64,000 nucleotides of DNA, taken from Aliiroseovarius zhejiangensis (GTDB taxonomy: Bacteria; Pseudomonadota; Alphaproteobacteria; Rhodobacterales; Rhodobacteraceae). The stretch is from NCBI RefSeq assembly GCF_014656375.1, contig NZ_BNCH01000002.1, forward strand, positions 62,001 to 126,000, read 5' to 3'. The notes under the pieces are model-generated. The model worked only from the letters and a program-made list of their open reading frames with translations, was not told where the DNA came from and searched no databases. Every line of letters begins with the position of its first letter. Within the stretch, counting starts at the first letter, position 1. Of the stretch, positions 43,884 through 50,347 are shown piece by piece. The position numbers and the translations under genes are program-made.

Positions 43884-43942
43884 GGGCGCATGTTCCCCAA
43901 AGCCACTGGCCTTTGCAAGCGGGGCTTTCTATTCTTCGCGTC

Positions 43943-45700
43943 ATGTTTCGATACTTGCGCACGAAATGGTTTTTTCCCTTTCTCCTGGCCACCCTTGCGG
44001 TCAGCGCGGGGGCTGGGGCGTTGGCGTGGCGCGCGGCGCTGGTGCCCTTGTCGGAACAGGCGGCATCCGAACTGGCGCTGGCGTCGGACCAGTTGACGCG
44101 GCATCTGTTTCGGTATCGCGAGCTGGCGGTGGTTCTAGCCGAGCATCCGGTGTTGCGTGACCGCCTGGGTGGCGAGGTGGACAGCGAGGGCGAGGCCGAT
44201 CGCCTGTTGCAGGCAATGGCGGACATGACGGGGGCGTACCACCTGTCGCTGGTCGGGCTGGACGGCAAGGTGTTGGCAGCTTCGGGCGAGGGCGAGGCAC
44301 AGCTGGATCCTGCGGCCCCTCTCATCCATCGCGCGTTGACGGGTGCGCTGGGGGTTGAGGCACGGTTTCAGCCAGTGCCATCGGGCGCAACGCAGCGCAT
44401 CTTTTCGTTCGCCGCGCCGATACATAGCCGCCAGGGCAAACCGCTGGGCACGGTGGTGGCGCGCACCGACCTGCTGGACTTTGAAGAGAACTGGCCGTCC
44501 ACCGATGCGGCGCTGTTCTTCACGCTGCAAGGCGACCGGGTGTTTGCCGCCAATCGGCTGGAGCTTGCCGGGGCTGAGCGTCCGCGGGAAGGTTTTCTGA
44601 AAAACACGGTCAGTCGCTGGGCCGGGCACGAGGTCTGGACGCTGGATGCCGGTCCCTATCTGCCGGACCGGGCCTTGCACCTGACCCGCGACCTGCCGGT
44701 CATCGGCCTGATGGGAGAGATACTGCTGGACACGGCACCTGCCGAACGCACAGCTGTTTTGCTGTCGGCAATTGCCGCCGCGATCTGTCTGGGGATCGGG
44801 GCGCTGCTGCTTGCCGTGGGGGAACGGCGGAGGGCGTTGAACAATCAATTGCGCCTGAAAGCGGCCGCCAATGCCCGGCTTGAGGCACGCGTGGCCGAAC
44901 GCACCAGGGCGCTGTCGGCGGCCAACACCGATTTGTTGCGTGAAAACAGGGAGCGTCGCGAGGCCGAAGCCGCCTTGAAGAAGGCGCAGGCCGATCTTGT
45001 GCAGGCAGGCAAGCTGTCGGCGTTGGGGCAAATGTCAGCGGGCATCAGCCACGAACTCAACCAGCCCCTGATGGCGATCCGGTCTTTCGCGGACAATGGG
45101 ATGGTGTTTCTGGAACGTGGGCGGACCGACCAGGCCGAACAGAACCTGAGCCGTATTTCGCAGCAGGCGGGCCGCATGGACCGTATCATCAAGAACCTGC
45201 GGGCGTTTGCGCGGCAGGAAAGCGAACCGATCGGGGACGTGGATCTGGTTCATGTCGTCGATCAGGCGCTGGAAATGCTTGGGCCGCGGATCCAGTCCGA
45301 TCGCGTGCACGTGGACTGGTCGCGACCAGCCACTGCGCCCAAGGTGCGTGGCGGTGAGGTGCGGCTTCAGCAGGTGGTGATGAACCTGATGTCCAACGCA
45401 ATGGATGCGATGGCAGAGCGGGTTCACAGAAAGATCGAGATCACGATGGAGCCGTCCACGGATCGGGTGACCCTGTCGGTGCGCGACACGGGGCCCGGCA
45501 TTGACGAACCCGACCGCATTTTCGACCCGTTCTATACAACCAAAGAGGTCAGCCCGACCGAGGGGATGGGGCTGGGGCTGTCGATCTCCTATGGTCTGGT
45601 GCAGAGTTTCGGAGGGGCGATACGGGGGCGCAACCATCCAGACGGCGGGGCCATCTTCACCGTGGAACTTGACCGCGCAGGCGTGCAGGAGGCCGCATGA
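43943..45700 (+). CDS. dctB: C4-dicarboxylate sensor kinase DctB
   Basis: A 585-residue membrane sensor kinase. Two helices near residues 10-30 and about 273-298 flank a periplasmic dCache sensor. A coiled coil (AAANARLEARVAERTRAL) leads into the HisKA H-box SAGISHELNQPLMAIRSFAD with the phospho-His near residue 370. The HATPase domain contains NLMSNAMDAM and DTGPGIDEPDRIF. It senses succinate/fumarate/malate in relatives. It overlaps dctD by 4 nt, so kinase and regulator are co-translated. Confidence 0.92.
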   Translation: MFRYLRTKWFFPFLLATLAVSAGAGALAWRAALVPLSEQAASELALASDQLTRHLFRYRELAVVLAEHPVLRDRLGGEVDSEGEADRLLQAMADMTGAYHLSLVGLDGKVLAASGEGEAQLDPAAPLIHRALTGALGVEARFQPVPSGATQRIFSFAAPIHSRQGKPLGTVVARTDLLDFEENWPSTDAALFFTLQGDRVFAANRLELAGAERPREGFLKNTVSRWAGHEVWTLDAGPYLPDRALHLTRDLPVIGLMGEILLDTAPAERTAVLLSAIAAAICLGIGALLLAVGERRRALNNQLRLKAAANARLEARVAERTRALSAANTDLLRENRERREAEAALKKAQADLVQAGKLSALGQMSAGISHELNQPLMAIRSFADNGMVFLERGRTDQAEQNLSRISQQAGRMDRIIKNLRAFARQESEPIGDVDLVHVVDQALEMLGPRIQSDRVHVDWSRPATAPKVRGGEVRLQQVVMNLMSNAMDAMAERVHRKIEITMEPSTDRVTLSVRDTGPGIDEPDRIFDPFYTTKEVSPTEGMGLGLSISYGLVQSFGGAIRGRNHPDGGAIFTVELDRAGVQEAA

Positions 45701-46938
45701 CCAACACCGTTCTTCTGGTCGATGATGACGCGATGGTGCGCGAGGCTCTGGGTCAGACGCTGGAGCTGGATGGGCTGACCACCATCCAGGCGGGCAGTTA
45801 TATCGAGGCCAAGGACCACATCGCGGCAGGTTTCGACGGGGTCATCCTGTCGGACATCCGTATGCCCGGAAAGGACGGGTTCGCCCTTTTGGCCCGTGCG
45901 CAATCCGTTGACCCGGAACTACCGGTGATCCTGTTGACGGGGGAAGGGGATGTTCCCACTGCCGTGCGCGGAATGAACGAGGGGGCGTTTGATTTTCTGG
46001 AGAAACCCTGCGAACCGGCGGCGCTGCTGGCGGTGGTCGGGCGGGCCTTGCGCACCCGCGCGCTGGTTCTGGAAAACCGCGCGTTGAAGGCGCGGGCAGA
46101 AACCGGCGATGCAGCGGCGCGCCTGCTGTTCGGCGAAAGCGTGCTGGCCGAGGAACTGCGCAACCGGGTGCGGGCGGCAGCCCGTGCACAGGCTGAGGTG
46201 CTGATCTGCGGCGAACCTGGCTCGGGCACGTCGAAAGTGGCCGAGGTGGTGCATCTTTTGTCCGGCGACGCCACGCGCCCCTTTGTCAAGCTGCCCGCTG
46301 CCGGGCTGACCGCCGCGGCGCTGGACGCGGCGTTCGACCGCGCCGATGGCGGCACTTTGTTTCTGGACGAGGTCGCCGCGCTTGAGGCGGGCGCGCAATA
46401 TCTGTTGCTTGACCTGCTGGACCGGGTTGCCAAGACGCGTGTGGTCGCGGGCACCTATCGTGACCTGGAGGCCGAGGTCGCCGCCGGGCGGTTCAATCCC
46501 GATCTGTTCTACAAGCTCGACGTGCTGCGCATCCGCATCCCGGCGCTGCGCGAACGCAAGGACGACATTCCGGTATTGTTCCGCCACTATGTTTCGATCG
46601 CCAGCGAACAGGCGGCGTTGACCCCGCCCGAGATAGAACATGACGTCATCGCGCAATTGATGGCGCAGGATTGGCCAGGCAACGCGCGCGCCCTGATGAA
46701 CGCGGCGATGCGATTTGCCATGGGGCTGGGGCTGGCGGATGCCGAAGGGGCGGCCCAGGACGCCCGGCCCGGACTGTCCGAGCAGCTTGCCCAAGTCGAA
46801 CGCTCGCTTCTGATCGAGGCGCTCAGGCGGCATGAGGGCGGGGCGACGGCAGCGGCGCAAGAGCTGCGCCTGCCCCGCAAGACCTTCTATGACAAGCTGG
46901 CACGGCACAAGATTCGGCCCGAAACCTATCGGCCCTGA
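45697..46938 (+). CDS. dctD: Response regulator DctD with degenerate AAA+ domain
   Basis: A 413-residue NtrC-type regulator of the dct genes. The receiver domain is intact (Asp53, Thr81, Lys103). In the AAA+ domain, Walker A reads GEPGSGTS (172-179), so the lysine is replaced by Thr178. The stretch from there to Walker B (GGTLFLDEV, about 218-226) is roughly 25 residues shorter than in normal members and contains no GAFTGA loop. Arg-finger region and C-terminal Fis-like HTH (residues about 380-410) are kept. Without GAFTGA it should not contact sigma-54, as with Rhodobacter capsulatus NtrC. Confidence 0.9.
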   Translation: MTNTVLLVDDDAMVREALGQTLELDGLTTIQAGSYIEAKDHIAAGFDGVILSDIRMPGKDGFALLARAQSVDPELPVILLTGEGDVPTAVRGMNEGAFDFLEKPCEPAALLAVVGRALRTRALVLENRALKARAETGDAAARLLFGESVLAEELRNRVRAAARAQAEVLICGEPGSGTSKVAEVVHLLSGDATRPFVKLPAAGLTAAALDAAFDRADGGTLFLDEVAALEAGAQYLLLDLLDRVAKTRVVAGTYRDLEAEVAAGRFNPDLFYKLDVLRIRIPALRERKDDIPVLFRHYVSIASEQAALTPPEIEHDVIAQLMAQDWPGNARALMNAAMRFAMGLGLADAEGAAQDARPGLSEQLAQVERSLLIEALRRHEGGATAAAQELRLPRKTFYDKLARHKIRPETYRP

Positions 46939-46939
46939 C

Positions 46940-46957
46940 TGTGCGGTTTTCCGCACA
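46940..46957. promoter_or_regulatory. Palindromic operator 1 upstream of dctP
   Basis: Perfect inverted repeat TGTGCGG-TTTT-CCGCACA, 2 nt after the dctD stop and about 217 nt upstream of dctP. No T run follows, which argues against a terminator. It is the likely DctD site. Confidence 0.6.
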
Positions 46958-46972: not shown

Positions 46973-46990
46973 TGTGCGAACTTTCGCTCA
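46973..46990. promoter_or_regulatory. Palindromic operator 2 upstream of dctP
   Basis: TGTGCGAA-CT-TTCGCTCA, a near-perfect palindrome sharing TGTGCG with operator 1. Its centre is 33 bp from that of operator 1. Confidence 0.5.
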
Positions 46991-47173
46991 CCTATGCCGA
47001 TCGAGACATGCGGAAGGGATGAGATATGGCCGATAGAACTTTGTTATAAAAAGATAATATCAAATATTACGCCGGTGTGACTGTTTTTCTTGGTGCCGCA
47101 GCCGAACCGTGCCCCAATAGCGGACAGGCGCCCAACCGGGCTGCCGGAGGATATCTGTCTGGGAGGACACCTT

Positions 47174-48181
47174 ATGAAATTCCTGACCATGGCCGTATCG
47201 GCGATCGCGCTGACGGCAACTGTAAACACCGCTTCTGCTGCCTGTGACGAAGGCGAGCTTGTGATCAAGTTCAGCCATGTCACCAACTCTGACAAGCACC
47301 CCAAGGGCATCGCAGCATCGCTGTTGTCAGATCGTGTGAACGAAGAAATGAACGGCAAGGCTTGTATGGAGGTCTATCCGAACTCGACCCTCTACAATGA
47401 CGATCAGGTGCTCGAGGCGATGTTGCAAGGCGACGTACAACTGGCCGCACCATCGCTGTCGAAGTTCGAGGCCTTCACCAAGCAGTTCCGCATTTTCGAC
47501 CTGCCGTTCATGTTCAAGGATATGGCTGCCGTCGATGCGTTCCAGAACTCGGAAACCGGGCAGGCGATGAAGGAATCCATGGCGCGTCGTGGTCTGTTGG
47601 GGCTGGAGTTCTGGCACAACGGCATGAAGCAATTCTCGGCCAACAAGCCGCTGATCGAACCCGGTGACGCTGCCGGGCTGAAATTCCGCGTGCAGCCCTC
47701 TGACGTGCTGGTCGCCCAGATGCAGGCGCTGGGTGCAAGCCCGCAGCCGATGGCCTTCTCGGAAGTTTACGGCGCGTTGCAACAGGGCGTTGTGGATGGC
47801 CAGGAAAACACCTGGTCGAACATCTATGGCAAGAAGTTCTTCGAAGTGCAGGACGGCACGACCGAGACCAACCATGGTGTGCTGGACTATCTGGTCGTGA
47901 CCAATGTCGACTGGTGGGAAGGTCTGGATGCAGACATTCGCGACCAACTGTCCACGATCCTGCGTGAAGTCACCGAAACCCGCAACGCGGCTGTTGGCGA
48001 AGTTGACGCCGAAGCCCGTCAGGCGGTTCTGGATGCCGGCGGTGTGATCCGCGAATTGACGCCGGAGCAGCGCCAGGCATGGGTTGATGTCATGAAACCG
48101 GTCTGGAGCCAGTTCGAAGCCGATGTCGGTGCCGAAAACATCGCCATCGCACAGGAAATCAACGAACAGTTGACAAACTGA
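47174..48181 (+). CDS. dctP: TRAP solute-binding protein DctP
   Basis: A 335-residue periplasmic binding protein for C4-dicarboxylates (succinate, fumarate, malate). A signal peptide ends near MAVSAIALTATVNTASA. The conserved ligand Arg is in GLKFRVQPSD and the TRAP signature follows (PQPMAFSEVYGALQQGVVDG). GGGAGG precedes the ATG at 47174. The 235-nt region upstream carries the two operators; a TATAAT-like TATAAAAAGATAAT lies near 47045. Confidence 0.93.
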   Translation: MKFLTMAVSAIALTATVNTASAACDEGELVIKFSHVTNSDKHPKGIAASLLSDRVNEEMNGKACMEVYPNSTLYNDDQVLEAMLQGDVQLAAPSLSKFEAFTKQFRIFDLPFMFKDMAAVDAFQNSETGQAMKESMARRGLLGLEFWHNGMKQFSANKPLIEPGDAAGLKFRVQPSDVLVAQMQALGASPQPMAFSEVYGALQQGVVDGQENTWSNIYGKKFFEVQDGTTETNHGVLDYLVVTNVDWWEGLDADIRDQLSTILREVTETRNAAVGEVDAEARQAVLDAGGVIRELTPEQRQAWVDVMKPVWSQFEADVGAENIAIAQEINEQLTN

Positions 48182-48292: not shown

Positions 48293-48952
48293 ATGAGCAC
48301 TCATTCCAACAATTCCAACGGGTTCGAGGAAACGTTGATCGCCCTGATCCTCGGCCTGATGACAATGATTACCTTCGTGAACGTGGTTTTGCGTTACGTG
48401 TTCAACTCCTCGCTGATCTGGGGGCTTGAGGTGACGCTGATCCTGTTTGCATGGCTCGTGCTTCTGGGCGTGAGCTATGGCGTGAAAGTTACCGCGCATC
48501 TTGGTGTAGATGCATTGACAAACCTTCTTTCGGACGGACCACGCCGGTTTCTGGCCCTGACGGCCGCAGCGATCTGTATCGTCTATTCGTTCCTGCTGCT
48601 GAAAGGTGCGTGGGATTACTGGGCACCTTATGCGGCCCTCGATCGCACGTCGGGCAGGTGGTTCCCTACTGGCTTCGAGCAGACCCGCGATCAGGCCTGG
48701 TACATCACTGATCAGGTGCCAATGCTTGATTTCCTGCGGTTTTTGGAAGGCTGGATCAATCAGGGCGAAACCTATGACAAGCTACCGCGCGTGATCCCCT
48801 ATGCGGTTCTGCCGGTCGGCGTGGCGCTGCTGCTGTTTCGGTTCATTCAGGCCACCATCCGGATCTGGCGGGGCCAGCAGGACAGCCTGATCGTCAGCCA
48901 CGAGGTGGAAGACGAGCTGGAAGAACTGCAACACAAGTCCGAGGAGGCATAA
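48293..48952 (+). CDS. dctQ: TRAP small permease subunit DctQ
   Basis: A 219-residue four-helix membrane subunit of the dicarboxylate TRAP transporter, including the conserved WGLEVTLILFAWLVLLGVSYGV. Unlike short DctQ, a periplasmic insertion (residues ~110-150) is present, which is usual for DctQ of the C4-dicarboxylate type. It lies 111 nt after dctP and 3 nt before dctM. Confidence 0.9.
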   Translation: MSTHSNNSNGFEETLIALILGLMTMITFVNVVLRYVFNSSLIWGLEVTLILFAWLVLLGVSYGVKVTAHLGVDALTNLLSDGPRRFLALTAAAICIVYSFLLLKGAWDYWAPYAALDRTSGRWFPTGFEQTRDQAWYITDQVPMLDFLRFLEGWINQGETYDKLPRVIPYAVLPVGVALLLFRFIQATIRIWRGQQDSLIVSHEVEDELEELQHKSEEA

Positions 48953-48955
48953 GCC

Positions 48956-50347
48956 ATGGACGTCCTCTTCCTTTTCGCCATGGTCGTCGGGTTCCTGATG
49001 ATCGGCGTGCCGATCGCGATTGCCCTTGGCATGAGCTCGATCATCTTCCTGCTGCTGTTTTCCGACACATCACTGGCATCGGTTGCGCAGAGTTTCTATC
49101 AGGCCGAAGCCGGGCATTATACGCTCCTGGCGATCCCGTTCTTCATCCTCGCGTCCAGTTTCATGTCAACAGGTGGTGTGGCGGCGCGGATCATCCGCTT
49201 CTCGATTGCCTGTGTGGGCCACTTTCGGGGCGGCTTGGCGATTGCGGGTGTGTTTGCCTGTATGCTTTTCGCCGCCCTCTCCGGCTCGTCGCCTGCCACC
49301 GTGGTTGCCATCGGGACAATCGTGATCGCCGCGATGCGCCAGGTCGGCTACACCAAGGATTTCGCCGCCGGTGTCATCTGTAACGCGGGCACGCTGGGCA
49401 TCCTGATCCCGCCCTCTATCGTGATGGTGGTCTATGCCTCGGCTGTGGAAGTGTCGGTGGGCCGGATGTTCCTAGCCGGTGTCATTCCCGGCATCCTTGC
49501 TGGTGTCATGCTGATGATTGCGATCTACGTGATCGCCACGATCAAGGACATGCCGAAAGGCGAATTTGCTGGCGTCCGTGAAGTGCTGGAAAGCTTCGGC
49601 GACGCGGTCTGGGGCCTTCTTCTGATCGTTATCATCATGGTCGGCATCTATGGCATTCCCGGCATCACGGGTGCGCTGTTTACACCAACCGAAGCCGCCG
49701 CCGTTGCCTCGGTCTATGCGTTCATCGTCGCCACATTTGTCTATCGCGACATGGGGCCGCTTGCCGACAAGGGCGAAGGCAAGAAGAACCTGCTGCAAAA
49801 ACCGCAGGCTCTGGTCACCGCGTTCTTCCACGCCGATACGCGCCGGACGCTGTTCGATGCGGGCAAGTTGACGATCACGCTGATGTTCATCATCGCCAAC
49901 GCGCTGATCCTGAAACACGTTCTGACAGACGAGCAGATTCCGCAGCAGATCGCCGGCGCGATGCTGTCGGCCGGCTTTGGCAAGATCATGTTCCTGATCA
50001 TCGTGAACATCATCCTGCTGATTGGCGGGCAGTTCATGGAGCCGTCGGGCCTGATCGTGATCGTGGCGCCGCTGGTGTTCCCGATTGCCATCGAACTGGG
50101 TGTCGACCCCATTCACCTGGGCATCATCATGGTGGTCAACATGGAGATCGGGATGATTACGCCACCGGTCGGCCTGAACCTGTTCGTCACATCGGGCGTT
50201 GCTGGTATGCCGATGATGAAGGTGGTGAAAGCCGCGCTGCCCTTCCTGGCCGTGCTGTTCGTTTTCCTGATCATGGTGACCTATATCCCGTTCCTGTCGA
50301 CCTGGTTGCCGACCACGCTGATGGGACCAGAGATCATCACCAAATAA
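48956..50347 (+). CDS. dctM: TRAP large permease subunit DctM
   Basis: A 463-residue sodium-coupled permease of 12 or more helices. Conserved helices include FFILASSFMSTGGVAARI, AALSGSSPATVVAIGTI and the C-terminal NMEIGMITPPVGLNLFVTSG. A cytoplasmic insertion of about 45 residues (from ~residue 260) separates the two halves. GAGGAGG precedes the ATG. A strong terminator follows. Confidence 0.95.
   Translation: MDVLFLFAMVVGFLMIGVPIAIALGMSSIIFLLLFSDTSLASVAQSFYQAEAGHYTLLAIPFFILASSFMSTGGVAARIIRFSIACVGHFRGGLAIAGVFACMLFAALSGSSPATVVAIGTIVIAAMRQVGYTKDFAAGVICNAGTLGILIPPSIVMVVYASAVEVSVGRMFLAGVIPGILAGVMLMIAIYVIATIKDMPKGEFAGVREVLESFGDAVWGLLLIVIIMVGIYGIPGITGALFTPTEAAAVASVYAFIVATFVYRDMGPLADKGEGKKNLLQKPQALVTAFFHADTRRTLFDAGKLTITLMFIIANALILKHVLTDEQIPQQIAGAMLSAGFGKIMFLIIVNIILLIGGQFMEPSGLIVIVAPLVFPIAIELGVDPIHLGIIMVVNMEIGMITPPVGLNLFVTSGVAGMPMMKVVKAALPFLAVLFVFLIMVTYIPFLSTWLPTTLMGPEIITK

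Follow-up and report, generated by a model that had tools for sequence, protein, structure and literature searches.

A DctD response regulator without Walker A lysine or GAFTGA that probably activates dctPQM from a sigma-70-type promoter

In a 64,000-nucleotide stretch of the Aliiroseovarius zhejiangensis genome (contig NZ_BNCH01000002.1, positions 62,001 to 126,000 of the forward strand; hereafter the window, whose numbering is used throughout), the gene dctD (45697..46938, plus strand) encodes a 413-residue response regulator of the bacterial enhancer-binding protein (bEBP) kind with a degenerate AAA+ domain. We conclude that this DctD very likely activates a sigma-70-type promoter at dctPQM, an operon for a tripartite ATP-independent periplasmic (TRAP) transporter, and that it does so independently of sigma-54 and probably without hydrolysing ATP. 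In the model that we propose, DctD would act as a dicarboxylate-responsive activator whose Asp53 is phosphorylated by DctB, as in its family. It would bind two tandem palindromes 3' of its own stop codon, as their conservation and the descent of the protein suggest, and from these would activate a sigma-70-type promoter, probably aided by a bend induced by integration host factor (IHF), while the conserved AAA+ domain may have been kept for its structural role or for oligomerisation.

By Pfam, the protein consists of a receiver (residues 5-114, 45709..46050; 2.2e-23), a sigma-54 activation domain whose match is gapped, a lid and a Fis-type helix-turn-helix (HTH) DNA-binding domain (HTH_8, residues 364-403, 46786..46905; 5.3e-9), in agreement with an original prediction, made from the letters of the window, that receiver and HTH are intact. 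In its P-loop (GEPGSGTSK, 46210..46236) the Walker A position is held by Thr178 instead of lysine, and a lysine follows two residues on (K180). In an alignment with two relatives that have GAFTGA (L076 and L110, the references for the loop deletions), the stretch from PFVKL to Walker B has 27 residues against 46, with 19 missing around GAFTGA (loop 1, deletion point 46326..46327), and the pre-sensor I loop (loop 2) has 32 against 44, with about 12 missing (46431..46432). The arginine-finger motif FRxDLxYRL has become FNPDLFYKL, both arginines being substituted in the segment GRFNPDLFYKL (46486..46518); Walker B (LFLDEV, 46357..46374) and the sensor II arginine R331 are still present. The original prediction had already named the loss of the Walker A lysine and of the GAFTGA segment, both of which are confirmed here; the loop 2 deletion and the arginine-finger changes go beyond it. 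An AlphaFold model of DctD retains the AAA+ fold (predicted local distance difference test score 94.2), has NtrX and NtrC1 as its closest solved folds with VpsR among the nearest, and places K180 in the helix after the P-loop (H178-188).

The same form recurs across the family. From a sample of 149 genomes, one per genus, in which 90 loci chosen from ranked matches were read, 66 genomes (A. zhejiangensis included) contribute to a set of 72 sequences, here called clade A, which six from an order-level draw complete; the DctD proteins of the other genomes are 52-70% identical to the window protein. A canonical Walker A lysine is found in 0/72, its place being taken by Ile (37), Thr (19), Val (11) or others (5), and the lysine two residues further on is present in 72/72. 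The P-loop glycines are intact in 71, 72 and 72 sequences, the Walker B residues corresponding to D224 and E225 in 69 and 60, and the sensor II arginine in all 72; the first finger arginine occurs in none and the second in 55. Every clade A sequence has an identical 27-residue length from PFVKL to Walker B, hence the same 19-residue loop 1 deletion, and Asp53 (45853-45855) is conserved in 70 of the 70 sequences that cover it. Mean pairwise identity within the clade is lower in the AAA+ core (0.50) than in the receiver (0.69) or the HTH (0.72). The ratio of nonsynonymous to synonymous substitution rates in the AAA+ core, between the window and three congeners, is 0.14, 0.105 and 0.12: this core is under purifying selection, and a pseudogene was rejected on this ground. 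Loss of the sensor I asparagine was dropped as an argument, since Lys stands in its place even in canonical relatives (L076, L110 and L097).

Quick trees without bootstrap, computed without the AAA+ core from the columns of receiver, lid and HTH, place 70 clade A sequences (two partial ones excluded) in a single group with SH-aLRT support of 98, or 97 without long-branch rows. In the drawn tree the earliest branches are L076 and L097, followed by L110 and next by L074, ahead of clade B together with clade A, and support at the intervening forks is 83-92. Clade A groups with GAFTGA-bearing DctD, has a dctP neighbour and carries the DctD-type tandem operator; its protein is a DctD by descent, and by mechanism it does not qualify as a sigma-54-dependent bEBP. 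The sole intermediate, L074 (genome G057), retains the Walker A lysine, loop 2 and both finger arginines and has lost GAFTGA; it carries the operator pair and promoter elements of the clade type (an IHF-like core at offset 42 and GTTGATC at 97, counted from the second operator site), and its genome is absent from the rpoN matches of the 149-genome survey. Judging from this one intermediate sequence, GAFTGA and the -24/-12 promoter appear to have been lost in this lineage before the ATPase residues decayed.

The gene for sigma-54, rpoN, was not found in the A. zhejiangensis genome (stated to be 100% complete) with either PF04552 or PF04963, models that in control searches gave matches in 4 of 14 genomes, including those of E. 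coli and Caulobacter; three congeners likewise gave no PF04552 match. Six open reading frames of the genome have enhancer-binding protein (EBP)-type domains, none with GAFTGA (0/6), three further weak EBP-type matches in other open reading frames lying outside that count. With its two contact loops cut and no sigma-54 detected in the genome, DctD should not contact sigma-54, and because the Walker A lysine and arginine fingers are lost, ATP hydrolysis is very probably impossible. Both functional claims of the original prediction are thereby supported: no need for sigma-54, given the missing rpoN, the cut loops and the lack of a -24/-12 element above chance (see below), and no ATP hydrolysis, as the lost lysine and finger arginines suggest.

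Across the family sample, rpoN scores above the cut-off in 44/149 genomes. Among the 66 clade A genomes, 12 have a clear match (one of these a partial copy with a stop) and one more a match of 23 bits; in a separate check of six clade A genomes, three have the gene and the three congeners do not. Among 80 further genomes chosen for a best hit above 400 bits, whose clade was motif-checked for Ruegeria pomeroyi alone, a clear rpoN is present in 16 and a match above the cut-off in 18; L076 and L110 also come from genomes with the gene. With rpoN so mixed in its distribution among clade A genomes, the degenerate DctD occurs both with and without sigma-54. The idea that this form is a simple result of rpoN loss was rejected, as 12/66 and 16/80 genomes still have the gene.

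Beside these counts stand two observations on A. zhejiangensis itself. The other five EBP-type proteins of its genome (L001, L002, L003, L004 and L006), taken here without a family assignment, lack GAFTGA and keep the Walker A lysine. DctD is the only EBP-type protein of the genome without that lysine.

Directly 3' of the dctD stop lies a perfect inverted repeat, TGTGCGGTTTTCCGCACA (operator site 1, 46940..46957), the only perfect match in the genome, followed 33 bp further by TGTGCGAACTTTCGCTCA (site 2, 46973..46990); the sites are given without strand. We defined an operator pair as two sites with at most 4 mismatches each and at most 7 together, 31-35 bp apart and no more than 1300 bp downstream. 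Such a pair is present in 61/72 clade A loci (within 20 bp of the stop in 35, beyond 200 bp in 8), and of the remainder six show one good site, whereas L019, L026, L050, L055 and L107 show none. The pair also occurs in L076, L110 and L074, in one of 27 loci of other EBP types and in 0/8 of clade B. Moreover, dctP lies downstream in 60/66 loci, one of the other six being too short for the test. As a side control, 80 named loci, 76 of them with GAFTGA or GAFSGA, yielded three with similar pairs and -24/-12 scores of 9-11/11 (Ensifer sp. LC163, Pseudomonas fuscovaginae and Pseudomonas izuensis). A genome-wide scan allowing up to 2 mismatches returned 22 sites against 25 in a reversed control, so we claim no wider DctD regulon.

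The region between the operators and dctP was compared with mononucleotide shuffles throughout. In L110, TGGCACGCATCTTGAA begins 97 bases past site 2 and matches 10 of 11 -24/-12 bases (0/200 shuffles as good), and in L076 TGGCATGGATTCTGCA, beginning at 51, matches 9 of 11 (0.04 of shuffles). Clade A regions reach 6-8 of 11 in 65 of 67 and 9 in two (0.035 of shuffles each). The original prediction had named a -24/-12 element before dctP as a sign against it; upstream of the window dctP the best candidate has 7/11, as good in 0.85 of shuffles, and none exceeds chance. When a GG-N10-GC core is required, the scores are 8/10 in L076 (0.03 of shuffles), 6 in L110 and at most 7 in clade A (61 regions).

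At a fixed distance from site 2, expectation maximisation found an element [TC]AA-N4-[CT]TG with an AT-rich flank, which we take to match the IHF consensus; in the window its core (YAR-N4-YTG) lies at 47034..47043, without strand. A score built on the element detects it in 56/61 regions, and the strict form occurs in 34/60 against a shuffle mean of 0.64, a count that kinship among the sequences inflates. The gene for IHF-alpha is present in the A. zhejiangensis genome, and L076 also has an IHF-like core, overlapping its -24. That this element, AT-rich and at offset 42, might be a -35 or an extended -10 was considered and rejected, as no TANNNT peak lies 17 bp on. Further downstream, [CG]TTGAG occurs at offsets 94-103, mostly 97-98 (41/61), and is followed after 17 bp by a consensus TTCACT; the search window was set at that offset, and the -10 columns were not selected on. 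The last T of this -10 is present in 46/60 regions, and TTG-N20-TWNNNT at offset 96-100 in 24/60 against a shuffle mean of 0.1, again inflated by kinship. This -35/-10 pair is conserved among relatives, its window copy being a predicted TTGGTG (-35, 47090..47095, plus strand), a 17-bp spacer and a weak predicted CCCAAT (-10, 47113..47118, plus strand) that is identical in three congeners (L009 and L103-L105 compared). By the offsets compared, the predicted clade A promoter stands at L110's -24 place, but not at L076's. From these elements, dctP transcription is predicted to start near 47125, which would put the operators at about -143 and -176 and the IHF-like site at about -86.

Genetic evidence comes from Ruegeria pomeroyi DSS-3, which has a clade-A-type DctD (GPAGSGISK, no GAFTGA) and, before dctP, the operator pair, an IHF-like core and TTGAGC-N17-TTCACT, with two open reading frames where dctQ and dctM would be expected. 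Judged by its position and the order of the genes, this regulator is presumably SPO2630, beside SPO2626-2628. According to the accessible part of one report (PMC10130141), the R. pomeroyi transporter serves fumarate, succinate and malate, and mutation of SPO2630 cuts growth by 96.9% on fumarate and 81.8% on succinate, and drawdown of the two by 94.9% and 58.0%; with malate, the mutant showed no significant change in growth and a 62.7% fall in drawdown. The same part of that report gives a 99.1% growth loss on fumarate for a dctM mutant, and the part available of another (PMC10041152) a fitness change of -0.25 for SPO2630 in one setting. The resemblance of the SPO2630 mutant to transporter mutants points to an activator.

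Activation of dctPQM independently of sigma-54, probably without hydrolysis, is thus the account that we consider probable. A more specific form of it is an ATPase-dead AAA+ enhancer-binding protein that activates the sigma-70-type promoter from about -143 and -176 by looping with the help of IHF, its pocket repurposed around the shifted lysine (GxGxxK) for a ligand or nucleotide without turnover; this we put forward tentatively and would sooner doubt than assert. Overlapping with our account is the notion, rather unlikely in our estimate, that DctD binds ATP, perhaps via the shifted lysine, and activates a sigma-70-type promoter without hydrolysis in the manner of Rhodobacter capsulatus NtrC, which is reported to need ATP binding (available part of PMC10274813). 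The invariance of K180 and the sensor II arginine (72/72 each), the P-loop glycines (71, 72 and 72 of 72) and the Walker B aspartate (69/72) speak for such binding, but neither a canonical lysine nor the first finger survives in any of the 72 sequences, and in the model K180 lies inside the helix after the P-loop.

Were the ATPase-less DctD merely to bind DNA and block dctP transcription, as a repressor or anti-activator, a conserved DNA-binding domain and operator beside lost activation machinery, as observed here, would be expected; such a role is improbable, as the sites lie some 100 bp upstream of the predicted -35 rather than over it, and loss of the presumed R. pomeroyi orthologue abolishes growth on fumarate. 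The missing rpoN match might suggest a non-functional relic retained by chance after the loss of sigma-54, but the form persists in 66/149 genomes at 52-70% identity under purifying selection, operator and promoter elements are conserved with it, the R. pomeroyi mutant has a phenotype and 12/66 genomes have rpoN, making a relic very improbable indeed. A sequencing or assembly error in the A. zhejiangensis genome can be ruled out for practical purposes, since 71 relatives, three congeners and 68 other loci, show the same changes.

Several observations weigh against the activator that we favour. The promoter comparison is uneven: the L110 element has GA where the -12 GC is expected, L076 does no better by shuffles than the two clade A regions at 9/11, L076 alone stands out once the GG-N10-GC core is required, and the window -10 falls outside the TWNNNT pattern. 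The GAFTGA-bearing L097 sits on a long branch, has no operator pair and no dctP found nearby, and the absence of rpoN is not general, with 12/66 clade A genomes and R. pomeroyi having the gene. In the protein, the second finger arginine of 55/72 sequences is still in place, and the invariant shifted lysine keeps nucleotide binding possible. The match to SPO2630 rests on position and gene order, and, as dctD lies upstream of dctP and the R. pomeroyi mutants were taken from a transposon library, polar effects are possible. Finally, a literature search found for this DctD neither a mapped transcript start nor measurements of binding or ATPase activity.

The genes around dctD complete a dctB-dctD-dctPQM locus on the plus strand. 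A dctB-like sensor histidine kinase gene precedes it (43913..45700, start codon uncertain; HisKA and HATPase_c above cut-off, dCache_1 below its cut-off), its stop overlapping the dctD start in ATGA. Downstream follow dctP for the TRAP solute-binding protein (47174..48181; TIGR00787, 263 bits), dctQ for the small permease (48293..48952; PF04290, 8.1e-26) and dctM for the large permease (48956..50347; PF06808, 6e-110).

Other regulators in the survey have changed in different ways. Clade B (L075, L078, L079, L092, L093, L109, L111 and L116), the sister regulators of clade A, keeps the Walker A lysine in 8/8, has lost the Walker B aspartate and both loops and has no operator pair, so that its ATPase loss is a mirror image of that in clade A. 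In L080-L091, L095, L096, L112-L115 and L117-L122, GAFTGA is replaced by GAFPGA (or GAFAGA, GAYPGA and similar), several of these regulators being encoded in genomes that gave no rpoN match (G264, G156 and G255, for example); a preference for proline at the Thr place of GAFTGA is noted in the accessible part of PMC3162934. One such regulator, L090 (G093), lies beside a dctP 78% identical to that of the window, with a different palindrome, TGGGTGGCAATCCACCCA.

The canonical DctD, which we take to be that of the Sinorhizobium meliloti type and represent here by L076 and L110, shares with clade A the receiver, the Fis-type HTH, the tandem 18-bp operator with sites 32-33 bp apart and the dctP target, and differs in its Walker A lysine, GAFTGA, loop 2, arginine fingers, -24/-12-like elements and rpoN. 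The following comparisons draw on the available parts of two sources (PMC10274813, PMC3162934). R. capsulatus NtrC and HupR share a deletion or change in loop 1 and action at sigma-70-type promoters (both sources), and TyrR and DhaR are, like HupR, GAFTGA-less relatives acting with sigma-70 (PMC3162934). The original prediction had likened DctD to R. capsulatus NtrC, which is apt only in part: that NtrC reportedly depends on binding ATP, if not on hydrolysing it (PMC10274813), and the other five EBP-type proteins of the A. zhejiangensis genome have the canonical Walker A lysine that DctD lacks. Caulobacter NtrC likewise lacks GAFTGA and regulates sigma-70-dependent promoters, but has an eight-residue deletion and requires its Walker A and B residues, with both ATP binding and hydrolysis reported (PMC10274813). 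Vibrio cholerae VpsR is also GAFTGA-less and reported to be ATP-independent (PMC10274813), but it binds c-di-GMP, according to the titles of its PDB entries, and regulates polysaccharide production (PMC3162934). What the DctD clade adds is the loss of the Walker A lysine and loop 2, a series within one lineage, and a promoter exchanged beside an inherited operator; in the literature search, no paper title or abstract opening described this DctD form.

These results chart, within one gene and its promoter, a traceable path from ATP- and sigma-54-dependent to sigma-70-type activation, in which the operator was kept, the promoter class swapped and the contact loops cut, the catalytic residues apparently being lost afterwards. 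The form is widespread in the family, Ruegeria included, and the label 'sigma-54 interaction domain' on its best domain matches would mislead annotation. The DctD clade makes the role of an AAA+ domain without ATP hydrolysis testable.

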